Shown here: positions 2,672 through 20,218 of the stretch, piece by piece | Position numbering within the stretch: the first letter of the stretch is position 1 | How the letters are laid out: every line of letters begins with the position of its first letter | Made by a program: the position numbers and the translations under genes | Assembly: GCA_022750205.1 (NCBI GenBank) | Contig: JAKIWD010000011.1 | Coordinates: 1-32,069 of the forward strand | From: Thermoplasmata archaeon | GTDB lineage: Archaea > Thermoplasmatota > Thermoplasmata > Lutacidiplasmatales > UBA184 | DNA: 32,069 nt | Reading direction: 5' to 3' | Notes under the pieces: generated by a model | The model's input: the letters and a program-made list of their open reading frames with translations, nothing else | What the model was told of the DNA's origin: nothing | The model's database searches: none

Positions 2672-4723
2672 ATGAGAACACGCTCGAGACCTCAGAGCTG
2701 GCTGATCGTCGCGCTGACCGTCGCCGTCGCCCTCTCCGCATGGACGGGGCTCGCGTTCGGGTCCCCGGCGGCGCACCCGGCGCTGGCGCGCGCAGCCCCG
2801 GCTCTCGGTGTCATCCCGGTGGCTCCAGCGGCACCCCCGCTGCCGGCGGTCGGTGGGCCGCAATGGATCAACCTCACCCCGCTGGAGAACGGAACGGCAC
2901 CGGCCGGCAGCGCGGACGCCGCGATGGCGTACGATCCGCTCGAGTCCGAATGGGTCTACTTCGGCGGTTGCACGGTCCTGGTCTGCCCGATCAACGACAC
3001 GTGGGTGTATGCCAACGGGGGTTGGCGGAACGTGACCGACCCCGCGCGCGCGCCCCCCGCCCGGTACGGGGCGACCATGGACTACGACGCGAACGCCGGC
3101 GGCATCCTGCTATTCGGTGGGATCGGCACCTCGGCGACGTTCCTGAACGACACCTGGCTGTTCCAGGGGTGCCAATGGACCAACGTGGATTATCTGGGTC
3201 CGGCCCCCCCCGCGCGCCTGTTCGCGAACATGGTCTTCGATCCGGAATCCGCAACGAACGGGTCGGTGCTCTTCGGTGGGTGCATCGGGATCGGGTTCAG
3301 CATCGGCTGTTTCAACGACACTTGGGTCTGGCAGCCGGGCGCCGGCTGGACCGAGCTCAAGAACGTCACCGCCCCGCCGGTCCGGGGCGCGGCGATGATG
3401 GCGTACGACCCGGTCGACCGGTACGCCGTCCTGTACGGCGGGTTTGGCAATTGCCCGTCGGGCTTCTGCTACTACCATGACACCTGGGAGTTCTACTCCG
3501 GGACCTGGTGGCCGCTCAATGCGACGAGCGTCGCCGGCCCGCCGGCCCGCGACTCGGCCGTCATGACGTTCGATCAGGCGTTGGGTGGAACGCTGATGTT
3601 CGGGGGGTACAACGAAACGATGGGGACGCCGCTAGGGGATACGTGGTTGTTCCACGGTGGGGCGTGGACCCAGATCAGCCCCAGCTCCGGCCCGTCCATC
3701 CGCTATCACGCTACGATGTCCGTCGACTCGTCCGGGGTGCCTCCGCTACTGTTCGGGGGCTACGCGGGGGCCGGCGGCGTGACTGTCGGGGACACGTGGG
3801 TGTATGAGACACCCCCCTCGGTGGCGATTTCCGGCCTGTCGGGGTCGGTGGAGGTCGGCGGGACGGCGCCTACCACGGTGACCGCGGGCGGCGGATCGGG
3901 GCCCTACTCGGTGATCGTGAACTTTGGAGATGGGAGCGCAGGGGGCGCGTCGGGGGCAGGGCCCACGTTCGCGTTCCCCCACGCATGGACCCGCACGGCG
4001 AACGTCACGGTCACCGCCAACCTCTCCGATTTCGTCGGGGAGCCCGCCACCGCGGCCCAGGCGCTGAAGGTCGTCGCGGGACCGACCATCGTGGCGACGG
4101 CGGGGATGGGCGCGAGCGATACTGGAATCAGTGTGTCATTCACGGCCCAACCGGGCTCCGGCTCCTCCAGCCTGACCGGTTACGTCTGGACGTTCGGCGA
4201 CGGGACGAACGCCTCGGGGGCGAACGTGACGCACGCGTTCGCTCACGCGGGGGAGTTCGAGGTCGCGGTCACAGCATCCGACAGCACGGGGGCCCCGGCC
4301 GACGCCCAGTTGATGTTCCCGGTCGCCGCCGTGCCTTCGGCGACCATCGTCGCCAACCCGACGCAACCGACCGCGGGCTCGGCGGCCGGATTCCTCGCGA
4401 CGGTCGGGGGCGGGAGCGCGCCGCTCCACTACGCGTGGTTGTTCGGGGACGGGAGCACGACCGGCCTCCCATCGCCGTCGCACGTCTACGCCGCGGCGGG
4501 CACCTTCTTGGTGCAGCTGTGGGTGAACGACTCTGCCGGAGCGACGAGCCACGCGAGTGCCACGATCGTGGTGGTCGCTCCGACGGGAGGGTCCCCGGGT
4601 CCGGCGTCCACCACGTCCTCAGCGATTCCGAGTTGGTACTGGATCGCCATCGCCGGTATCGTGATCGCCACGGTCGTCGTTGCGGGGCTGTTGATCGCGA
4701 CCCGGAGAAAGCCCGGTACCTAG
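2672..4723 (+). CDS. Kelch-repeat and PKD-domain surface protein with C-terminal anchor
   Basis: The 683-residue protein starts with a signal peptide (basic MRTRSR, then a hydrophobic stretch ending near AFG, about residue 30). Six kelch-type blades follow (about 70-385), each with a YDP/FD turn, an FGG or YGG core and an NDTW or DTW strand ending in W-T/W-x-L. Three PKD-like immunoglobulin folds come next (about 385-640), seen from FGDG / WTFGDG / WLFGDG and the matching HAFAHAGEFEV and HVYAAAGTFLV strands. The end is one membrane helix (about 652-677) and RRKPGT. It should be an exported protein with a six-blade propeller at the tip of a stalk, for binding at the cell surface. Ligand unknown. 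It follows the previous gene by 4 bases and converges with the membrane-bound regulator at 4804-5466. Confidence 0.85.
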   Translation: MRTRSRPQSWLIVALTVAVALSAWTGLAFGSPAAHPALARAAPALGVIPVAPAAPPLPAVGGPQWINLTPLENGTAPAGSADAAMAYDPLESEWVYFGGCTVLVCPINDTWVYANGGWRNVTDPARAPPARYGATMDYDANAGGILLFGGIGTSATFLNDTWLFQGCQWTNVDYLGPAPPARLFANMVFDPESATNGSVLFGGCIGIGFSIGCFNDTWVWQPGAGWTELKNVTAPPVRGAAMMAYDPVDRYAVLYGGFGNCPSGFCYYHDTWEFYSGTWWPLNATSVAGPPARDSAVMTFDQALGGTLMFGGYNETMGTPLGDTWLFHGGAWTQISPSSGPSIRYHATMSVDSSGVPPLLFGGYAGAGGVTVGDTWVYETPPSVAISGLSGSVEVGGTAPTTVTAGGGSGPYSVIVNFGDGSAGGASGAGPTFAFPHAWTRTANVTVTANLSDFVGEPATAAQALKVVAGPTIVATAGMGASDTGISVSFTAQPGSGSSSLTGYVWTFGDGTNASGANVTHAFAHAGEFEVAVTASDSTGAPADAQLMFPVAAVPSATIVANPTQPTAGSAAGFLATVGGGSAPLHYAWLFGDGSTTGLPSPSHVYAAAGTFLVQLWVNDSAGATSHASATIVVVAPTGGSPGPASTTSSAIPSWYWIAIAGIVIATVVVAGLLIATRRKPGT

Positions 4724-4803: not shown

Positions 4804-5466
4804 TCAGGAGGCCGACGGTACATCCCGATTCGCCGGGGCGGGAGTACGTGGAGCACCGGTACGCCCGACCAGGGCATCGGCGCCCCGCGGGCGGAGCTCC
4901 CTCGCGAGGAGTTCTCCTCTCGAAGTCAGCCGGTAGACCTTGACCCGCCGCGGCACGCCTCGGGCGTGCTCCCGGCGCTCGGAGAGGAGTCCGGCATCGA
5001 CCAGGCTCCGGAGTGCGCCGGTCAAGGTCCCCTGATTGACGGATAGCGCGTCGACCATTCCAGCCTGACACAGTTCTCGAGGCGCGACCTCGTCGATGCC
5101 CAACCGGCCCTGCCGGGCGACGTGAACGAGAATGCGCTGAGCGAGTCTCAGGGCCTCCTCCGGCCGGGTCGGACCGGACGGGGGCCTTGTCATGGATTTC
5201 GACGCGGAAGCGGGCGGAGCCATCGAACGCACAGAGCTGGAGCTCTGGCTCGCCGGAGGCGGTCCCGCCGCCCCGATCACCCGGGCGGGGACAGGATCCG
5301 GTGACGACGCGGCGATCCGGCTCGCTTCGGGTGGGTGTAGTACCGGAACGGTCTCGAGGAGCCACGTGGATCTGTGGGTACGCAACCCCCACCAGAGCGT
5401 GAGGAGGGCCGCGGCCGCAACCGCCACCCCGGCGGCGAACCCTTCCCAGAAGACGGCCGGAGTCAT
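4804..5466 (-). CDS. Membrane-anchored winged-helix regulator
   Basis: The 220-residue protein begins with a single hydrophobic helix (about residues 6-26, WEGFAAGVAVAAAALLTLWW) followed by GLRTHR. The positive-inside rule then puts the C-terminal part in the cytoplasm. A low-complexity Pro/Ser linker (about 40-97) leads to a winged-helix domain (about 100-185): helices around EEALRLAQRILVHVARQG and GIDEVAPRELCQAGMVDAL, a recognition-helix-like NQGTLTGALRSLVDAGLL, and a wing ending KVYRLTSRGELLA. This resembles MarR/PadR-like folds that read 'learn start, choose repression'. No sensor domain lies outside the membrane (only about 6 residues), so a signal would have to come through a partner. 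The gene sits 49 bases behind the kelch receptor on the same strand with no clear own TATA box, suggesting co-transcription. Function as a DNA-binding regulator is likely; partnership with the kelch protein is inferred. Confidence 0.72.
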   Translation of the reverse strand: MTPAVFWEGFAAGVAVAAAALLTLWWGLRTHRSTWLLETVPVLHPPEASRIAASSPDPVPARVIGAAGPPPASQSSSSVRSMAPPASASKSMTRPPSGPTRPEEALRLAQRILVHVARQGRLGIDEVAPRELCQAGMVDALSVNQGTLTGALRSLVDAGLLSERREHARGVPRRVKVYRLTSRGELLARELRPRGADALVGRTGAPRTPAPANRDVPSAS

Positions 5467-5515
5467 TGCGCCGGGACCCCGAGGGACGGCGCCGTCTCGG
5501 GAAAACCCTTCGGAC

Positions 5516-7264
5516 TCACCGTTCCAGGGAATCGGTGTCGGGGCCCTGCCCGTTGGTGGGGCCGCGGGGCAGCTCCTTCAATCGGGCCACGAGCTCGTCG
5601 CGGGCGTGAGCTCGTCGACGATCCCGATACACGAGTACCCCGCCTACACCGACGGTGAGCACCGCTCCGACGAGGAGTCCGCCAGCGAACGTCGAGTCGT
5701 ACCACGGGAGAGCGCCGCCACCGCCCGATCCACCCGAACCGCCGGTCGGTAGCCTCGTCACGGGCACCACGTCCAACACGGCGCTGGTCTTGGCGTGCCC
5801 GAGCGTGGTGGCGTTGACGAACACCCAGACCGGGAACGATCCCGTGACCGTCGGAGTGCAGGTGACGATCGCCGCGTTGACGCCGGCGCAGCCGGCGGGC
5901 AGCCCGGTGTAGGCGAACGTCGTCCCGGCCGCACCGAACACGCCGAGGGTCGACAGCGTGACCGGGGTGCCGAGGGGGAGGGGGGTTTCGGACCACTGGA
6001 GTGCGGGGGCCGCTTGAAGGATCGCCGGAGTGATGGTCCCGCTCCCCAGATGGATGACCCAGACGTCGGAGTAGGTGATGCCCGCGGCCCACCCTCCGAA
6101 GAGGAGGGTCCCGTTCTCATCGGGGTCGTAGACGGCGAGCGTGAGCGAGCGGTTCCCCAGCGCGGTCTCGGAGGCGACCTCCGACCAGGCACCGGCGGCG
6201 TAGGTCCATACGTCACCGAACGGGAGCCAGAACGGATAGCCCGGAGGCGCCTTGGCGCAACAGCCGCCGAACAGCACGACCTTGTCCACGACCGGGTCGA
6301 ACGCCGACACCGCCCCCGAGCGGGGCGATGGCGCTCCGGTGACCGATCCGGTCACGTTCGTCCAGTTGCCGGCGTGATACTCCCACGTTTCCTGAGAGTT
6401 CCCGGCGCCCGCCGCCGAGTAGGCCCCTCCGAAGTAGAGCACATAGCCGTCCGCGCCGTCGTAGACCATCGTCCCTTCCCCCGGTGGTGCGACGCCGGTG
6501 GTCTGGTTCGTCCAAGCCCCCCCGACGTAGCTCCATGAGTCGGTCAGGTTCTCGAAAATGCCGCTCGCACTCCCGAACCCACCGTGGAGGAACGCGGAAC
6601 GATCCGCGGCGTCCCAGGTCAAGAACGCCTGCTCCCGGGGGGAAGGCGCCGCGGTCCCGGTCGAGGTGCGGTTGGTCCACGTTCCGTGCGAGAAGGTCCA
6701 CGTGTCGTTCAGGTAGCCCGGGTTGCCGTGGGTGTGGTAGACCGAGCCCCCGAACAGGACGACATAGCCGTCCGAGGGATCGTAGACCATGGCCGGAGCC
6801 TGGCGGTTGGGCGGCGCGCCGGTCAGATTGAGTTCCGTCCAATTGCCGTGGAGATAGGTCCACGTGTTGATCGTCGCTCCCCAGACGCTGCCGTTGGGGC
6901 CGGTCCAGTTGGGCGATACGAACACCACGTACCCATCGACCGCATCGTACGCGATCGCCGACGCTACCGAACCCGGGCCCGTCGGCCCCACCACTGAGTG
7001 CGTCAGGACCGCGGGGGGGGACGGTGTCAGGGCGCCGAGCGCAGAGAGGGTCAGATCCCGAGAAGCGGTCGGCGAGGGACCGGCTCCCGAGACGGGGCTG
7101 GTCGAAGCATGAGACGTCGCGAAAGTTGGAATAGTGATCATCGCCAGAGGTAGGAGGAGCAGCCCGACCAGGATCATCGCGGGCCACCGTGAACGGGCGA
7201 CGAGCTGGGGACGAGGAGGGAGTTCGGGCCGTGACGTTCGGTCGTCGGTTCGGTGCGGCGTCAT
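5516..7264 (-). CDS. Kelch-repeat receptor-like protein with Ig-like domain, anchor and cytoplasmic tail
   Basis: The ORF track starts this frame at 8992, but the part above 7264 is antisense to the next gene. The ATG at 7264 gives MTPHRTDD, a basic region and a signal helix (about 29-48, PAMILVGLLLLPLAMITI). A TATA-like box lies about 28 bases upstream. The 582-residue product has six kelch blades (about 85-385; e.g. VVLFGG...NDTWTF and LFGGWAAG...DVWVI), then one Ig-like domain (about 390-475) with a cysteine pair around AGCAGVNAAIVTC. A Gly-rich linker and one membrane helix (FAGGLLVGAVLTVGVGGVLVY) follow, then a charged tail of about 45 residues (RDRRRAHARDELVARLKELP). That tail is longer than in the other kelch proteins here and could contact a cytoplasmic partner. 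Likely a surface receptor or adhesin; ligand unknown. Confidence 0.8.
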   Translation of the reverse strand: MTPHRTDDRTSRPELPPRPQLVARSRWPAMILVGLLLLPLAMITIPTFATSHASTSPVSGAGPSPTASRDLTLSALGALTPSPPAVLTHSVVGPTGPGSVASAIAYDAVDGYVVFVSPNWTGPNGSVWGATINTWTYLHGNWTELNLTGAPPNRQAPAMVYDPSDGYVVLFGGSVYHTHGNPGYLNDTWTFSHGTWTNRTSTGTAAPSPREQAFLTWDAADRSAFLHGGFGSASGIFENLTDSWSYVGGAWTNQTTGVAPPGEGTMVYDGADGYVLYFGGAYSAAGAGNSQETWEYHAGNWTNVTGSVTGAPSPRSGAVSAFDPVVDKVVLFGGCCAKAPPGYPFWLPFGDVWTYAAGAWSEVASETALGNRSLTLAVYDPDENGTLLFGGWAAGITYSDVWVIHLGSGTITPAILQAAPALQWSETPLPLGTPVTLSTLGVFGAAGTTFAYTGLPAGCAGVNAAIVTCTPTVTGSFPVWVFVNATTLGHAKTSAVLDVVPVTRLPTGGSGGSGGGGALPWYDSTFAGGLLVGAVLTVGVGGVLVYRDRRRAHARDELVARLKELPRGPTNGQGPDTDSLER

Positions 7265-7288: not shown

Positions 7289-7296
7289 TTCATAAA
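7289..7296 (-). promoter_or_regulatory. TATA-like box of the kelch receptor gene
   Basis: TTTATGAA on the minus strand stands about 25-32 bases upstream of the ATG at 7264 within GC-rich DNA. That spacing fits an archaeal promoter giving a leaderless or nearly leaderless transcript. Confidence 0.5.
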
Positions 7297-7468: not shown

Positions 7469-9736
7469 GTGGCTCGGACGCAGATGAATTGCGCCAATTG
7501 CGGGAGGAAGTATTCGGCCTATTCGCCGCGGAACGCTCGCTGGTGCAAGAAGGAGCAGGTGTTCGTCTGCCAGAAGTGCCTGGCCAAGACCGGCACATGC
7601 CCGTCGTGTGGAGGCTCGATCAGCCAGCTCGCGGGGTCGCTGATCGTCCAGGGGGCGGTCTTCCTCGCGGTCATCCTGTTCATCGCCGTGATCATCCTGC
7701 CGGGGAACGTTGCCGGTGAGCAGCGCAACGCACTGGCCGTCACGCCCGTCTCGGGGCTCAGCCTCGGGGCGAACGAGAAGGTCTTCGGTATCGTCAGCCC
7801 CGGCCAGGGCGCGGTCATCGTCGTCTTTTCGTACACGGACAGCTCGGGCAATTCGGCCACCGGACGCCACGTCGAGAACTTCTGGCTGAACGATCCGACG
7901 GGCCGTGTCCTGGTCGAGATGGGATCGAACGATTCCTCGACCCCGACGATCGCCCGGGGGGGCGAAGGATTCCCGCCCGGTGTCGCCGTCGTGACCGGCT
8001 TCCAGTACGAGTCCAATGATTCCATCTCCATCATCGGCCAGGTGACCCAGGTCGGGAACGTCACGGCAATCGGGGCCAGCGCCGTCGCCCCGAACCCCAC
8101 GGCATTCTCCCATGCCTCGGCGACCACTGACGCCGAGTTCTTTGGAATACCGAGCGCGATCTGCGTTTCGGTGATCCTGGCTGGGGTGTTCCTCACCCGA
8201 TCCCGGCTGCGCTGGCACGAGCTGAACTTGCCCAAATGGACCCTGAAGCGTCCCAAGGAACTCTCGGCGCCCCCTCCGGCGGACTCGATCGAATGGATGG
8301 ACAACGCGTACCTGGGACAGATCCGGCGCATCGGACGTGTCGGCATCGCGGCCTCCTTCGCCCTGATCGCGCTCTTCCTGGTCGTGGTCGTCTCCCCGAC
8401 CAACTTCCCGGACCAGGTCTACTTCGGGGTGCTGGTCGGCACCCCGATCGGCCTGATCTTTGCCGCCGTCAGCGGCTACAACTACTGGAACCTCGCGCGC
8501 CGCGGGATCCGGCGACTCGGCGCATCGTCGCAAGGGGTGTACCTGGATTACGCCCGGGTCCCGCCCGGCGCGCGCACGTTCATCGCGTGGACTGACATCC
8601 GCGAGCTCGAAGCTCCGAGAGCGATCTACGCCCACGGCGCCCAGATCGACACCCCCCTCGGCTCGGAGTACCTCCAACTGCTCAGCACGGATACCATCAC
8701 GTTCCTGCGGACCCATTTCGAGGCGGCCCGGGTCCCCTACCGTTCCCAATCCGCCCCGCTCCGGCCGTCGGTCGAATCGCTGCTGGGCACGGGTCCCCCG
8801 GCCTCGGTCTCCGGGACGGTCTGGACCCGCAATCCGTTGGCTCGCCGCTGGGTGCTGAAGGGGGCCCTTCTGCTCGTCCTTCAGATCCCCCTGGCAGTGC
8901 TCGGGGTGATCTTCTTCGAACGGTATGGTTTGAATCAGGGGGAGGCGCTCTTCTTCCTCCCGACGATGTTCGGAGCCCAGCTCGCCTACCAAGGCTCCCG
9001 GGCGATCCGGGCGGTCGGGATCTCCGCGGTCGGGTTCTCGTTGCGTGAATCAGCGGGCGAGCGAACCATCCCGTGGTCCGAAGTGGCCGAACTGACCCCG
9101 TTCGCGCGCGGAGTTCGGTATAAGTCGGTGACCGGATTCGCCGAATCGTTCGCTCGGCTCGACCGCACCGTGATCGCCGCGATCGTAGACGGACTCAACC
9201 AAGCCCGCGGGGTCCGCAGCTTGGTCGCAGCCCCGAACGTCCCGCCGGCGGTGGCCGCCTGGGTGACCAACCCGCTGCACGGCTCCGCGCGGGATCTGCT
9301 CGTCCTGATGGTGGCGCTGCCGCTCGGCGTCTCGCTGGCGTCGACGGCATGGCTCGTGCTCACCGGGAACCCGAACGCGATCTTCGGGATCTTTTTTCCG
9401 GTGATCCTGATCGTTTTCGGGATCAACCCGTTGGTCTCCTGGCGCGCGAGTCCGGTGCGCATCGCCCTGACCTCCGACGCGATCTTCGTCGACTATGGCC
9501 GACCGGTCTCCGACGTCAGCGCGTTCAACGTCCTCCCCTTCTCACAGATCGCAACGGCGTCCGCCTCCGGGCCCTCCTCCGCCCCCCGGGGGCTGGGGCT
9601 TCGCCCCATCGCGATCAGCTTCCGGACGGTGGCGGGGATCAATCTCGCCGTCGGCCCGGTGTCGCCGACGGTGGCGAGAGCCGTCCAAGTTCGATTCCGG
9701 CCCGACCAGTTGCAAGAGTGGAAGCTCCCCGGCTGA
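7469..9736 (+). CDS. Multi-pass membrane protein with N-terminal Cys cluster, GIDE-like domain and PH-like segments
   Basis: GTG start, with GGAG 7 bases upstream. The 755-residue protein opens with seven cysteines (C8, C11, C26, C34, C37, C44, C47) in zinc-ribbon/RING-like spacing, then a membrane helix (about 55-78). Residues about 80-210 read like a GIDE (MULAN-type E3 ligase) segment: KVFGIVSPGQG..., then FWLNDPTGRVLVEM and a closing SISIIGQV; a second helix follows (about 225-245). The rest looks like three units, each a pair of hydrophobic helices followed by a PH-like beta segment containing a W-x-D/E-I/V pattern (FIAWTDIRELEAP, TIPWSEVAELTPF, VLPFSQIATAS). Membrane location is clear; the GIDE and PH assignments are by eye and need a profile search. 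It is divergent from the kelch receptor across a 204-base gap. A role in membrane-bound signalling or protein turnover is only a suggestion. Confidence 0.7.
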   Translation: MARTQMNCANCGRKYSAYSPRNARWCKKEQVFVCQKCLAKTGTCPSCGGSISQLAGSLIVQGAVFLAVILFIAVIILPGNVAGEQRNALAVTPVSGLSLGANEKVFGIVSPGQGAVIVVFSYTDSSGNSATGRHVENFWLNDPTGRVLVEMGSNDSSTPTIARGGEGFPPGVAVVTGFQYESNDSISIIGQVTQVGNVTAIGASAVAPNPTAFSHASATTDAEFFGIPSAICVSVILAGVFLTRSRLRWHELNLPKWTLKRPKELSAPPPADSIEWMDNAYLGQIRRIGRVGIAASFALIALFLVVVVSPTNFPDQVYFGVLVGTPIGLIFAAVSGYNYWNLARRGIRRLGASSQGVYLDYARVPPGARTFIAWTDIRELEAPRAIYAHGAQIDTPLGSEYLQLLSTDTITFLRTHFEAARVPYRSQSAPLRPSVESLLGTGPPASVSGTVWTRNPLARRWVLKGALLLVLQIPLAVLGVIFFERYGLNQGEALFFLPTMFGAQLAYQGSRAIRAVGISAVGFSLRESAGERTIPWSEVAELTPFARGVRYKSVTGFAESFARLDRTVIAAIVDGLNQARGVRSLVAAPNVPPAVAAWVTNPLHGSARDLLVLMVALPLGVSLASTAWLVLTGNPNAIFGIFFPVILIVFGINPLVSWRASPVRIALTSDAIFVDYGRPVSDVSAFNVLPFSQIATASASGPSSAPRGLGLRPIAISFRTVAGINLAVGPVSPTVARAVQVRFRPDQLQEWKLPG

Positions 9737-16130: not shown

Positions 16131-17201
16131 TCACGTCGGGAAGGCGTGGGTTCGGCTCCCGGGCACTTTCAGGGCAAAAATCCGGTTCCCGCTCCCCTTC
16201 CCCGAGTCGAGGTCGTCAATCGCGCTCAGGATCTTGATCGCCCCCCGCCCCCGGGCCGTGAGCCGATATCGTTCCCGGGCCAGGTGCGTGACGAGACCGC
16301 TCTCGGTCAGCTTACGGAGGTGAAACGCGATCTTGGAGGTGTCGTCCAGGTGAGCCGCTTCCATGGCTTGCGTAAAGCTGCAGGGACCGTCGGCCAGGCG
16401 TCGCAGGACCAGTCGCCGGATCGGGTTCCCGAGTGACTCTAAGGTCGTGTGTGCGTCCGCCGAGACGATGGACGATTGCACCGCCAACGCCCCCGTCGTG
16501 GTGATCTTGGTGGGATCGTACCCGACGGCCAGCGGCCCTTTCCCCTCGAGGAACGCCCGGATCTCTTCGAGGAGCGCGGCGATATCCTCCTCTCGGTGGC
16601 GTGCCAGGAGTTCTTCGATCGCGGCGAGCACTACGGCGGCCCTCTCTTTCAGCGAGACGAACTCGGCCACGGCATCCCGGATCCGGAACGGGTTCTCTGT
16701 GTCCAAGGGGAGGTAACTTACCTTCTCCGCAGCCGGAGGTACCGGGGGCGGGGAGATCAGGAGCACTTCATACCCCCCCTCCGCAGCCAACGAGCGGGCA
16801 TACCGAGTCGGATCCAGAGCGGTGGCACCGACCCGGAGCAACGCGAGCTGTTGGCTGACCAGCTCGAGCACGCGCTGGACCTGATCCGGCCGGATCGGTT
16901 TGCGAAGATAGTCGAACGCACCGAGACGCAGCGCCCGAACGGCCGTTTCCACGGTCGCATGGCCCGTGAGCATCACGACCAGGAGGCGCGGCCAGCGCTC
17001 CCGTGCTTGGGTCAGGAGCTCGATCCCGCTCCGTCGCCCCATCCTGAGGTCGGTGAACATGACATCGAACTCGGCGCTCTCCAGCGCCTGCACCGCTCGC
17101 GGGGCGGTGGAGACGGCCGTCGCCATGTGGCCGTGCTGCGTCAGCAGGTCGGAGAGTTCGACGCGAAACTCCGCGTCGTCGTCCACTACCAGTATTCGCA
17201 C
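16131..17201 (-). CDS. Response regulator with C-terminal winged-helix domain
   Basis: GTG start. The 356-residue protein begins with a full receiver domain (1-120): acidic pocket D7-D8-D9, phospho-acceptor D51 in FTDLRM, T79 in MLTGHA, and K101 in YLRKPI. These are all the residues needed for phosphorylation by a histidine kinase. A middle segment (about 125-235) begins YARSLAAEGGYEVLLISPPPVP, which recalls a DUF835-like fold, then a charged helical region (FVSLKERAAVVLAAIEELLARHREED). The end is an ArsR-like winged helix (about 245-325; GNPIRRLVLRRLADGPCSF, KIAFHLRKLTESGLV, YRLTARGRGAIKIL). In archaea, receiver domains joined directly to DNA-binding domains are less common than in bacteria. 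No kinase gene is in the window, so the partner lies elsewhere. Likely a transcription regulator. Confidence 0.85.
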   Translation of the reverse strand: MRILVVDDDAEFRVELSDLLTQHGHMATAVSTAPRAVQALESAEFDVMFTDLRMGRRSGIELLTQARERWPRLLVVMLTGHATVETAVRALRLGAFDYLRKPIRPDQVQRVLELVSQQLALLRVGATALDPTRYARSLAAEGGYEVLLISPPPVPPAAEKVSYLPLDTENPFRIRDAVAEFVSLKERAAVVLAAIEELLARHREEDIAALLEEIRAFLEGKGPLAVGYDPTKITTTGALAVQSSIVSADAHTTLESLGNPIRRLVLRRLADGPCSFTQAMEAAHLDDTSKIAFHLRKLTESGLVTHLARERYRLTARGRGAIKILSAIDDLDSGKGSGNRIFALKVPGSRTHAFPT

Positions 17202-17776: not shown

Positions 17777-20077
17777 CTACGTCGGCGGTTTCTTCCGCCG
17801 TCGCGACCAGACGACGGCGATCAGCACCGCGATGACGATGAGGATGACGATCAGCGCGAGCCAATCGGTGGTTGAGAAAGATCCTGACTGACCCGACGTC
17901 GCCGGCGCCGACGCGCTCACGGTGACCCGAAGCGACGCGGTGGCCGACCGTTGAGCGGAGTCCGTGACGGTGAGATTGACGACGAACACGCCGGCGGTGC
18001 CGTAGGCGTGGGTCGCGTTGCGAGTGGTAGCTGAGTGGCCGTCGCCGAAGGACCAGAGGTAGGTGTAGGGCGCCGAGCCGCCGGCGGGGACGGAGTCGAA
18101 CGTCACACTCTCCCCAACGGAGGGGGTCTGGGTCGACGCTGCGATGACCACCGATAGGGGGGCCATGACGGTGATCGTCCACGCCTTCAAGGCCACCGAG
18201 CCGGCGGAATCCGAGACGTTCAGGTGCACCAGGTAGGTTCCGGGAACGCTGAAGGTGTGCGTCGCGTTCTCGTTCGTTACGGCGCCGCTGCCGTCTCCCC
18301 AGGTCCACTGATAGGCGTAGGGCGGTTCCCCGCCGGAGGGGGTCGACGAAGCCGTGACGGTTAACGGGGCAAGTCCCGAGAGGGGCGTGACGCTCGCCTG
18401 GAGCGTGAGTTCAGGAAGGGTGGTGACGACCTGCTCGGTGAAGTTGATGTAGACCGACCCGCCGATCGAGGCAGAGATCTCGTAGGACACGTCAAAGGTC
18501 GCCGCGCTGGCGTAGGCGTGCGTCGTATTCTGGGTGGTGGCGTGGCCGCCATCTCCGAAGCCCCAGCTGAAGGTGATCGGGGGCCAACCACCGGTGAAGG
18601 TCGAATCGAACGAGACGGACTGGCCGACGGTCACGACGCTCGGCACCGCCGAAGCGTCGGCATGAAGGGTAGGAGCTTCGGCCCGGACGGTCCAGTTTAC
18701 GGAGTAGAGCCCACTCGCGGCATCGTGGACCGTCAACGTCAGGTTGTAGGTCCCCGGAGTCGAGTACGTCGCCGACGTGTTCGCGACGTAGAGTGAACTC
18801 CCGTTGCCCAGCGTCCAGGTGACGTTGTACGGCGCCGTCCCACCGGAGACCGTCGCGGACAGGGAGACCGTCAGGGGGACGACGCCGCTCAGCGGGGAAG
18901 CGGAGGGGAGGACCGTGAGTCCGGTACGCCCGCCCGACGTCTCGTTGAAGACGAACGTCGCACCGGTGCTCGGCACCTCGTAGACGATCCAGGAATCCGC
19001 GGCGTCGTACGTGAACTGGTCCCACACCGTCCCGCTCGGCGGAGTGCCCGGCAGGTTGTTGTAGAGCGTCCAAGTCAGGTTGGAGAACACCCAGGTCCCG
19101 TAGGGGTAGTAGGCGGACGGGAAGCCCCCGTACATCACCTCCTCGTTCAGGGCCGTGTCGAACGCCCCGCCGGGCCCGACTCGGCCATCCGGGTACGTCA
19201 ACGACGAGGCGGTCGAAGAGGTAGTGACGTTGGCCCAGTCGGTTCCGGACCAGGTCCAGGTCGTGTTGTAATACTCAGTGCCGAGGCCACCGAACAGGAC
19301 GACGTCGGTGCTCTGCGGATCGTCCATCAAGCCCGCCCCGTGTCGGGACTGGGGATGCGTGATCGGCGCGGCCTGGCTCCAGGCTCCCGACGAGAACGTC
19401 CACGTATCGTTCAGGTCCGAGCTGCTCCTGCTCAACCCTCCGAACAGCACGACGTTGTTGGTCGCCGAGTCGAACGCCATCGACGGCCAGAAGCGCGGGA
19501 TGGGGGCGTGACCGATCGACAGATTGGACCAGCTGCCGCCGGAGAACTCCCATGTGTCGTTGAGAACGGCGCCCGAGCCAGCATCGCCGCCAAAGAGGAG
19601 CACCTCGCCCTCCAGCGGGTCGAACGCGATGCCGAACCCGAACCGGGGGGACGGTGAGTGCGTAGGCGTGATGTTGGTCCACCGACCGCCGGAGAACTCC
19701 CACGTGTCGTTGTAGTAGGTGTAGTGGAAAGTCGTCAGGTTAAGGTACTCGCCACCAAAGAGGATCGTGTACCCGTCCTCGCCATCGTAGACCAGGCCGC
19801 CGCTGATGCGAGGGGGAGGGGCACCGGCGGTGGCGGTCAGGTTGGTCCACGTGGGGGTCCCGCTCACGTCCGGTACCGGTGTGTAAGGCGCGCTGTGTGG
19901 CGAATTCGCGTGGCGGTCGTCGGCCGCTCCGACGGTTGGGATTGCGACCTTCCCGGGGGACGGCACCGCGTGGGCCGCGTTCGTGGGAGCGAGCGAGAAA
20001 TGCGGCGCCGCCGTCGCGACGATGACGAGCATCAGGGTGATTGCGACCGTTGATGGCCCCGCGGCGTGAGAGTTCAC
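17777..20077 (-). CDS. Kelch-repeat protein with four PKD domains and C-terminal anchor
   Basis: The ORF opens at 20143, but the GTG at 20077 (VNSHAAGPSTVAITLMLVIVATAAPHF) has a TATA-like box 28 bases upstream and gives a compact signal peptide, so it is preferred (766 residues). Six kelch blades follow (about 75-370), e.g. YDGEDGYTILFGG...YNDTWEFSGGRWTN and FDSATNNVVLFGG...LNDTWTFSSGAWS; the sixth is degenerate. Four PKD-type domains come next (about 390-730): WTLGNGS, WGFGDGG, WTWGDGS and WSFGDGH, each with a matching aromatic strand (TYSTPGTYNLTL, HTFSVPGTYLVHL, HAYGTAGVFVVNL). The end is one membrane helix (WLALIVILIVIAVLIAVVW) and SRRRKKPPT. It is the closest relative here of the protein at 2672-4723. 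Likely an exported stalked propeller. Confidence 0.85.
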   Translation of the reverse strand: MNSHAAGPSTVAITLMLVIVATAAPHFSLAPTNAAHAVPSPGKVAIPTVGAADDRHANSPHSAPYTPVPDVSGTPTWTNLTATAGAPPPRISGGLVYDGEDGYTILFGGEYLNLTTFHYTYYNDTWEFSGGRWTNITPTHSPSPRFGFGIAFDPLEGEVLLFGGDAGSGAVLNDTWEFSGGSWSNLSIGHAPIPRFWPSMAFDSATNNVVLFGGLSRSSSDLNDTWTFSSGAWSQAAPITHPQSRHGAGLMDDPQSTDVVLFGGLGTEYYNTTWTWSGTDWANVTTSSTASSLTYPDGRVGPGGAFDTALNEEVMYGGFPSAYYPYGTWVFSNLTWTLYNNLPGTPPSGTVWDQFTYDAADSWIVYEVPSTGATFVFNETSGGRTGLTVLPSASPLSGVVPLTVSLSATVSGGTAPYNVTWTLGNGSSLYVANTSATYSTPGTYNLTLTVHDAASGLYSVNWTVRAEAPTLHADASAVPSVVTVGQSVSFDSTFTGGWPPITFSWGFGDGGHATTQNTTHAYASAATFDVSYEISASIGGSVYINFTEQVVTTLPELTLQASVTPLSGLAPLTVTASSTPSGGEPPYAYQWTWGDGSGAVTNENATHTFSVPGTYLVHLNVSDSAGSVALKAWTITVMAPLSVVIAASTQTPSVGESVTFDSVPAGGSAPYTYLWSFGDGHSATTRNATHAYGTAGVFVVNLTVTDSAQRSATASLRVTVSASAPATSGQSGSFSTTDWLALIVILIVIAVLIAVVWSRRRKKPPT

Positions 20078-20098
20078 TCGGGCCGATTTCCGAGCCCC

Positions 20099-20107
20099 TA
20101 CTAGTAA
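20099..20107 (-). promoter_or_regulatory. TATA-like box of the four-PKD kelch gene
   Basis: TTACTAGTA on the minus strand, centred about 26-28 bases upstream of the GTG at 20077. Confidence 0.45.
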
Positions 20108-20218
20108 GTGCTGCCGCGGGCTTGCAATCCCCTGTCGCGGCACGAAGCGGCCACGCCACGGAGGTCGTACGAGAACCGATGGCCTTCCCCAAGTAGCGCG
20201 ACCTCTCGACGGGGCGCG

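Follow-up and report, generated by a model that had tools for sequence, protein, structure and literature searches.

Enteric bacteria encode the co-component systems VtrA/VtrC, ToxR/ToxS, TcpP/TcpH and PsaE/PsaF as cassettes of a regulator and its partner (PMC9214523). Transcription regulators bound to the membrane, the TTRs, are known from bacteria and archaea; the accessible part of a survey of these proteins counts 1,384 archaeal examples, with single-pass forms the commonest, and treats them as one-component regulators, neither an obligatory receptor partner nor a conserved partner tail being described in that part (PMC10269533). In Sulfolobus, ArnR and ArnR1 are membrane-bound archaeal HTH regulators that target genes for surface structures (PMC6396743). 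The VARTIG loci of Thermococcales are archaeal operons in which the first gene encodes a large, variable surface protein with Ig domains and the next ones encode small proteins, most of them in the membrane (PMC8416519). Apart from two-component systems and a small number of one-component regulators, little is known of archaeal transmembrane signalling. Here we analysed a pair of genes from a stretch of 32,069 nucleotides (the window, GC near 68%) of an archaeon of the Lutacidiplasmatales. This order is described in PMC9287336, a genome paper in which kelch, PKD and receptor are not mentioned. Comparison of related loci shows an arrangement that, as predicted from sequence, consists of an exchangeable ectodomain encoded upstream, a membrane helix running into a conserved cytoplasmic helix, and one winged-helix family encoded downstream.

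The regulator gene of the window (4804..5466, minus strand) encodes a protein of 220 amino acids. The earlier note had read it as an N-terminal membrane helix, a disordered linker and a winged helix with barely any outside part, and the AF2 model confirms this layout. The membrane helix comprises residues 3-35 (5362..5460; AF2 and hydropathy) and the Pro/Ser-rich linker residues 36-100 (5167..5361; pLDDT ~50-63), followed by the winged-helix DNA-binding domain at residues 102-201 (4864..5163; pLDDT >93), whose second HTH helix spans residues 145-157 (~4996-5034), all on the minus strand. Matches to MarR/PadR regulators by structure (Foldseek) and by PDB profile, together with the AF2 model, place the fold in the PadR/MarR winged-helix superfamily with the flanking helices present. 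Pfam detected no Trans_reg_C domain; its best matches were PadR/MarR-like, the PadR profile PF03551 scoring 24.6 bits, under the gathering cut-off of 27. As a membrane region and a DNA-binding domain are both predicted in this one protein, it qualifies as a TTR; members of its family that have no membrane helix do not. No kinase or receiver domain was found by Pfam or NCBIfam in either the regulator or the receptor, which sets the pair apart from two-component systems.

The receptor gene (5516..7264, minus strand) encodes 582 amino acids arranged as a signal/anchor segment, a kelch propeller, an Ig-like domain, a membrane helix and a cytoplasmic tail. Its kelch repeats scored 65.6 bits with PF24681 (cut-off 50, E=5e-18; Pfam), and in the AF2 model residues ~97-410 (6035..6976) close into a six-bladed beta-propeller resembling KLHDC2, LZTR1 and YjhT (Foldseek), so that repeats and fold both identify a kelch propeller. 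The ectodomain contains 13 N-glycosylation sequons. A hydrophobic segment lies near the N-terminus (residues 30-48); if it stays uncleaved, the receptor crosses the membrane twice. The C-terminal membrane helix was located by hydropathy at residues 527-545 (5630..5686), and in the AlphaFold model it forms a single unbroken helix with the first half of the tail (residues 525-564). The tail (5519..5629) carries 9 K/R and 7 D/E among its 37 residues and starts with the conserved helix RRRAHARDELVARL (~5579-5620); it scored 18.1 bits in a cross-validated tail HMM and E=2.8e-9 in a genome-wide profile search. Thus the gene position, the membrane helix and the charged tail reported previously were correct, while the tail is shorter than the 45 residues then given.

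Receptor and regulator genes are separated by a 49-bp spacer (5467..5515, minus strand); the gap and the shared strand had been noted before and are confirmed from the sequence. A TTTATG box (7291..7296, minus strand, read from the sequence) precedes the receptor ATG at 7264 by 27-32 nt, which supports this start. The box is also found at the equivalent place in related pairs and is likely the core promoter of the two-gene unit. Because the gene beyond the regulator (2672-4723, plus strand) is convergent, the two genes form a unit of their own. This convergent gene and the gene at 17780-20143 (minus strand) encode two further surface proteins that combine kelch with PKD and have their membrane helix at the C-terminal end. 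No winged helix follows them and their short tails lack the motif of the receptor tail; they therefore serve as natural controls. The divergent neighbour at 7469-9736 (plus strand) encodes a protein of 755 amino acids, with a Cys-rich segment resembling a zinc ribbon at the N-terminus and some seven membrane helices, for which Pfam gave no confident family. The product of 16134-17201 (minus strand), with a response-regulator receiver domain and a C-terminal ArsR-like HTH/DUF7347, is an archaeal response regulator with DNA-binding output.

For a census of the winged-helix family, a profile was built from 27 winged-helix domains and applied at a threshold of E<=1e-8; genome contigs were scanned with a 6-row alignment. 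The family is patchy: it is present in 43 of the 78 genomes of the genus, with up to eight copies each, and the remaining 35 have zero copies. The genome of the window holds eight. The copies fetched numbered 116 in the genus, with 21 more from the other genera of its family and a single one from a different family of the order; loci were fetched for the 116 copies of the genus and for 20 from other genera. Strong scores (above ~80 bits) were restricted, class-wide, to the family of the window (five genera) and a single genome outside it, from a different family of the order. The carriers are Thermoplasmata MAGs, among them 'Candidatus Lutacidiplasma silvani'. Weaker class-wide matches were not accepted as further receptor/regulator pairs, since those inspected, with larger frames and lower scores, were mostly STAND-type NTPase regulators that start with a homologous winged helix. 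One branch (SH-aLRT 91) splits the STAND-type winged helices from the receptor-coupled set. Loci of the L024-L037 type in other Thermoplasmata families likewise have the winged-helix family at the head of large STAND/AAA-TPR-like regulators, class-wide.

Adjacency of the two genes was scored when the immediately upstream gene on the same strand encoded a protein whose C-terminal part comprised a membrane helix and a short tail. Four of the 116 copies sit at contig ends, leaving 112 to be evaluated. The automatic rule was satisfied by 101 of these compared with 47 of 636 other genes of the same loci (7.4%; Fisher 1.5e-74), and by 104 once three loci (L060, L094 and L143) with motif-bearing tails and a membrane helix just under the threshold were added. 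This frequency excludes chance neighbours. Five of the eight copies left outside the count are single proteins that already contain an ectodomain, and a few PKD-bearing or odd members (L136, L149, L207, L215) have no clear partner. The spacer has a median of 57 bp in 100 pairs of the family, and the genes overlap by 4 bp in 14 pairs. The adjacency holds in the genus and in four other genera, and extends to a genome with 37% GC from a different family, in which a 532-residue protein with a signal and a C-terminal membrane helix is encoded 52 bp upstream of a PKD-TM-winged-helix gene; the tail of this surface protein is without the motif. A winged helix of this family was almost never found without a surface part, either an upstream receptor or a fused ectodomain being present. 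The earlier note had named loss of adjacency in relatives and winged-helix genes lacking a surface partner as grounds for rejecting its reading; examined on both counts, the reading was not refuted. On this comparison of gene order, receptor and regulator genes appear to be one inherited unit.

Receptor tails share a membrane-proximal helix of the approximate form R..R.EGE.[LW]V.EL, in which the core positions are conserved at 64% (E), 72% (G), 66% (V) and 80% (L/M). A simple motif pattern was present in 58 of 103 partner tails and in one of 49 control tails, and this single positive control looks like a second receptor beside that of L095. With the cross-validated tail HMM, 92 of 102 partner tails scored above 6 bits compared with 3 of 49 controls (AUC 0.95). 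The motif is missing from a few of the upstream surface proteins (L071, L110, L120, L127, L128). In addition, we searched 16 whole genomes, eight with the winged-helix family and eight without, using a profile of 23 membrane-plus-tail segments. All 21 matches at E<=1.6e-4 adjoin a winged-helix copy (0.2-1.4 kb), with the receptor just upstream, and 12 of them were absent from the profile itself; at the same threshold the eight genomes without the family gave zero matches. The conserved tail also offers a simple sequence signature by which receptors can be recognised among the numerous surface proteins with kelch or PKD domains in these genomes, most of which do not carry it.

The regulator occurs in several forms. 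About 44 copies consist, as in the window, of a short membrane helix, a linker and the winged helix, and 36 copies carry a PKD ectodomain in front of the membrane helix and winged helix. In about 25-30 copies the winged helix has no membrane helix, a few of these being contig-end fragments or mis-called starts. Finally, six copies from six genomes are single chains in which kelch and PKD are fused to a membrane helix and the winged helix (confirmed by Pfam). The linker is found in tethered and in single-chain forms. A separate receptor accompanies the first three forms, whereas the single-chain form has none except at L128, where an upstream surface protein is present and its tail lacks the motif. 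The motif was found in 40 of 42 partners of the short tethered form, 28 of 33 of the PKD-bearing form and 24 of 27 of the form without a membrane helix; in the winged-helix proteins' own juxtamembrane stretches it was absent (0/36 in the PKD-bearing and 0/6 in the single-chain form).

Among the receptors, the ectodomain is kelch, PKD, an NHL/YNCE propeller or unrecognised. At a locus type marked by downstream genes for trxB, a ferredoxin and a GGR-like flavoprotein, it is kelch in L060 and L097 and a YNCE/NHL propeller in L057, with tail and regulator kept in all three despite the different ectodomains, as if the outer domain had been replaced in place. The same trxB-ferredoxin-flavoprotein neighbours and differing receptor ectodomains were seen at L049, L057, L059, L060, L082, L095 and L097. 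Two expectations of the earlier note did not survive this comparison. Kelch is not the defining part of the pair, and a kelch-specific pairing was rejected, because NHL/YNCE propellers, PKD and further ectodomains serve just as readily. Nor is membrane tethering obligatory: about 25 members have no membrane helix, and several of their stop-to-stop frames are too short to contain one.

The tail thus tracks a separate regulator whatever the outer domain, which is most readily explained if the tail is where receptor and regulator meet. Contact between tail and regulator, guessed at in the earlier note, thereby gains strong circumstantial support from sequence conservation; the conserved tail could instead serve assembly, sorting or degradation. 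We consider it probable that receptor and regulator work as a "co-component" system, with the tail of the receptor docking the winged helix in trans. A ligand or contact outside the cell would alter the membrane and juxtamembrane helix of the receptor, and the altered helix would dock the separate winged-helix protein, either a neighbour in the membrane or, where it has no membrane helix, one recruited from the cytosol. Docking might then change winged-helix dimerisation or access to DNA, with the unit's own promoter among the likely targets. Since no kinase or receiver domain is present, the pair would work like the bacterial co-component systems, with the coupling element placed inside the cell.

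Candidate regulatory sites were sought at the promoters of these units. In the ortholog group L048, L065, L088 and L102, TAGATAgCGAATATATCCGG is kept just upstream of the TTTATG box near the receptor start. The 12-13 nt element GAATATATCCGG contained in these promoters occurs a single time in each of the genomes G010, G025 and G075, always at this receptor promoter, and we regard it as a candidate operator of the receptor/regulator unit. The genome of the window has a single copy, located where contig C74 ends, and the sequence after it resembles the beginning of these receptor genes; C74 may connect to C57, a contig with a truncated receptor. The element lies beside the promoter box in L065, L102, L048 and L088 and was also seen at position 1501 of L228; it is mostly unique per genome. 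The related GGAATATCTCCG occupies the same place in L060 and L097, so that the operator candidate is limited to two ortholog groups. The window's own pair has no operator-like element, as expected if specificities differ, and no element is shared upstream of its group. One general operator for all pairs was rejected, as no such common element was found. Also in the genome of the window, a small gene for an HxlR-like regulator has a GAATATATCCGC site immediately upstream (L227, positions ~1042-1501); this site may be chance.

These conserved promoter-side elements suggest autoregulation in the ortholog groups concerned. The winged helix might act as a local autoregulator of the surface-protein operon, a surface-display switch receiving no signal from the receptor. 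A conserved 12-mer restricted to this promoter upstream of its box would fit such a switch, as would the frequency of co-transcribed autoregulators in general and the resemblance of the untethered members to ordinary regulators. We nevertheless judge it unlikely, because it leaves unexplained the tethering and the tail motif that tracks a separate winged helix across unrelated ectodomains. It also leaves unexplained the six single-chain kelch-PKD-TM-winged-helix fusions, in which, by Rosetta stone logic, kelch ectodomain and winged helix are joined across one membrane helix.

Fusions, tail motif and untethered forms count to differing degrees against the other alternatives as well. Regulated proteolysis, in which the receptor would control cleavage of the tethered regulator and thereby free the winged helix, suits the short N-out anchor and long disordered linker, both fitting for a protease substrate, but the approximately 25 members without a cleavable membrane helix still keep a motif-bearing receptor, and no protease gene recurs among the neighbours; this mechanism appears improbable. 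Winged helices can also act as protein-interaction modules, and the small protein could be a chaperone or anchor for the surface protein, using its winged helix for protein contact or chromosome tethering rather than for transcription. The intact MarR/PadR-like DNA-binding architecture, the divergence of the second HTH helix between subgroups and the sister members heading STAND-type regulators make such a purely structural pair very improbable. In line with docking of the tail to the winged helix, we lean, with some reserve, towards a transmembrane signalling architecture, assembled and multiplied within one archaeal order, that combines an exchangeable sensor, a juxtamembrane docking helix and a tethered, ectodomain-bearing or cytosolic winged helix without phosphorylation. 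The more than 130 loci provide a testable rule for it, a changing module outside and a constant tail and winged helix inside. If correct, a genome would contain up to eight parallel lines from receptor to gene, comparable to paralogous two-component systems, and these lines would help to learn what uncultured Thermoplasmata of acid soils sense.

In the literature searched, which leaves most subscription papers outside, we found no published description of this archaeal unit. The previous statement that no archaeal system of this form is described agrees with that literature; it needs the qualification that bacterial co-component systems and membrane-bound transcription regulators are known kinds. 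With the TTRs the regulator of the window shares a predicted membrane helix and DNA-binding domain within one protein (PMC10269533, accessible part). ArnR and ArnR1 are single proteins with an N-terminal HTH, a putative HAMP domain, a sensor and two C-terminal membrane helices, encoded without an adjacent propeller receptor (PMC6396743), whereas the regulator of the window has one N-terminal membrane helix, a C-terminal winged helix and no HAMP match. Among the literature on kelch, PKD and archaeal regulators that was searched, the VARTIG loci were the sole relevant find; they were set aside as a match, as their description mentions no HTH or transcription regulator and they comprise different proteins in a different lineage (PMC8416519). 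The STAND/AAA regulators of Thermoplasmata have a homologous winged helix, mostly no membrane helix, and partner domains of the NTPase type.

The closest correspondence is with the enteric co-component systems. Both consist of adjacent genes, in an operon-like unit, for a membrane-tethered HTH regulator and a membrane partner with an outside domain; both lack a phosphorelay, and in both the HTH can still be recognised although the outer domains evolve quickly. The enteric regulators have a CadC/OmpR-type N-terminal HTH and pair with a lipocalin sensor in a conserved heterodimer in the periplasm. In the archaeal unit the winged helix is MarR/PadR-like and C-terminal, neither a CadC/OmpR-type HTH nor an outside-domain heterodimer with a lipocalin-like sensor is found, and a large propeller or PKD receptor is encoded first. 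Unlike the enteric systems, it has a cytoplasmic coupling element, and some of its regulators have no membrane helix. Because hardly anything of the short TM-winged-helix members lies outside and their partners are propeller or PKD proteins, we regard the unit as an analogue of the co-component systems rather than a member, and we claim no homology with the enteric cassettes. If the proposed docking takes place, the unit would be a co-component-like route from the outside to the genes that arose independently of the bacterial ToxR/VtrA type.
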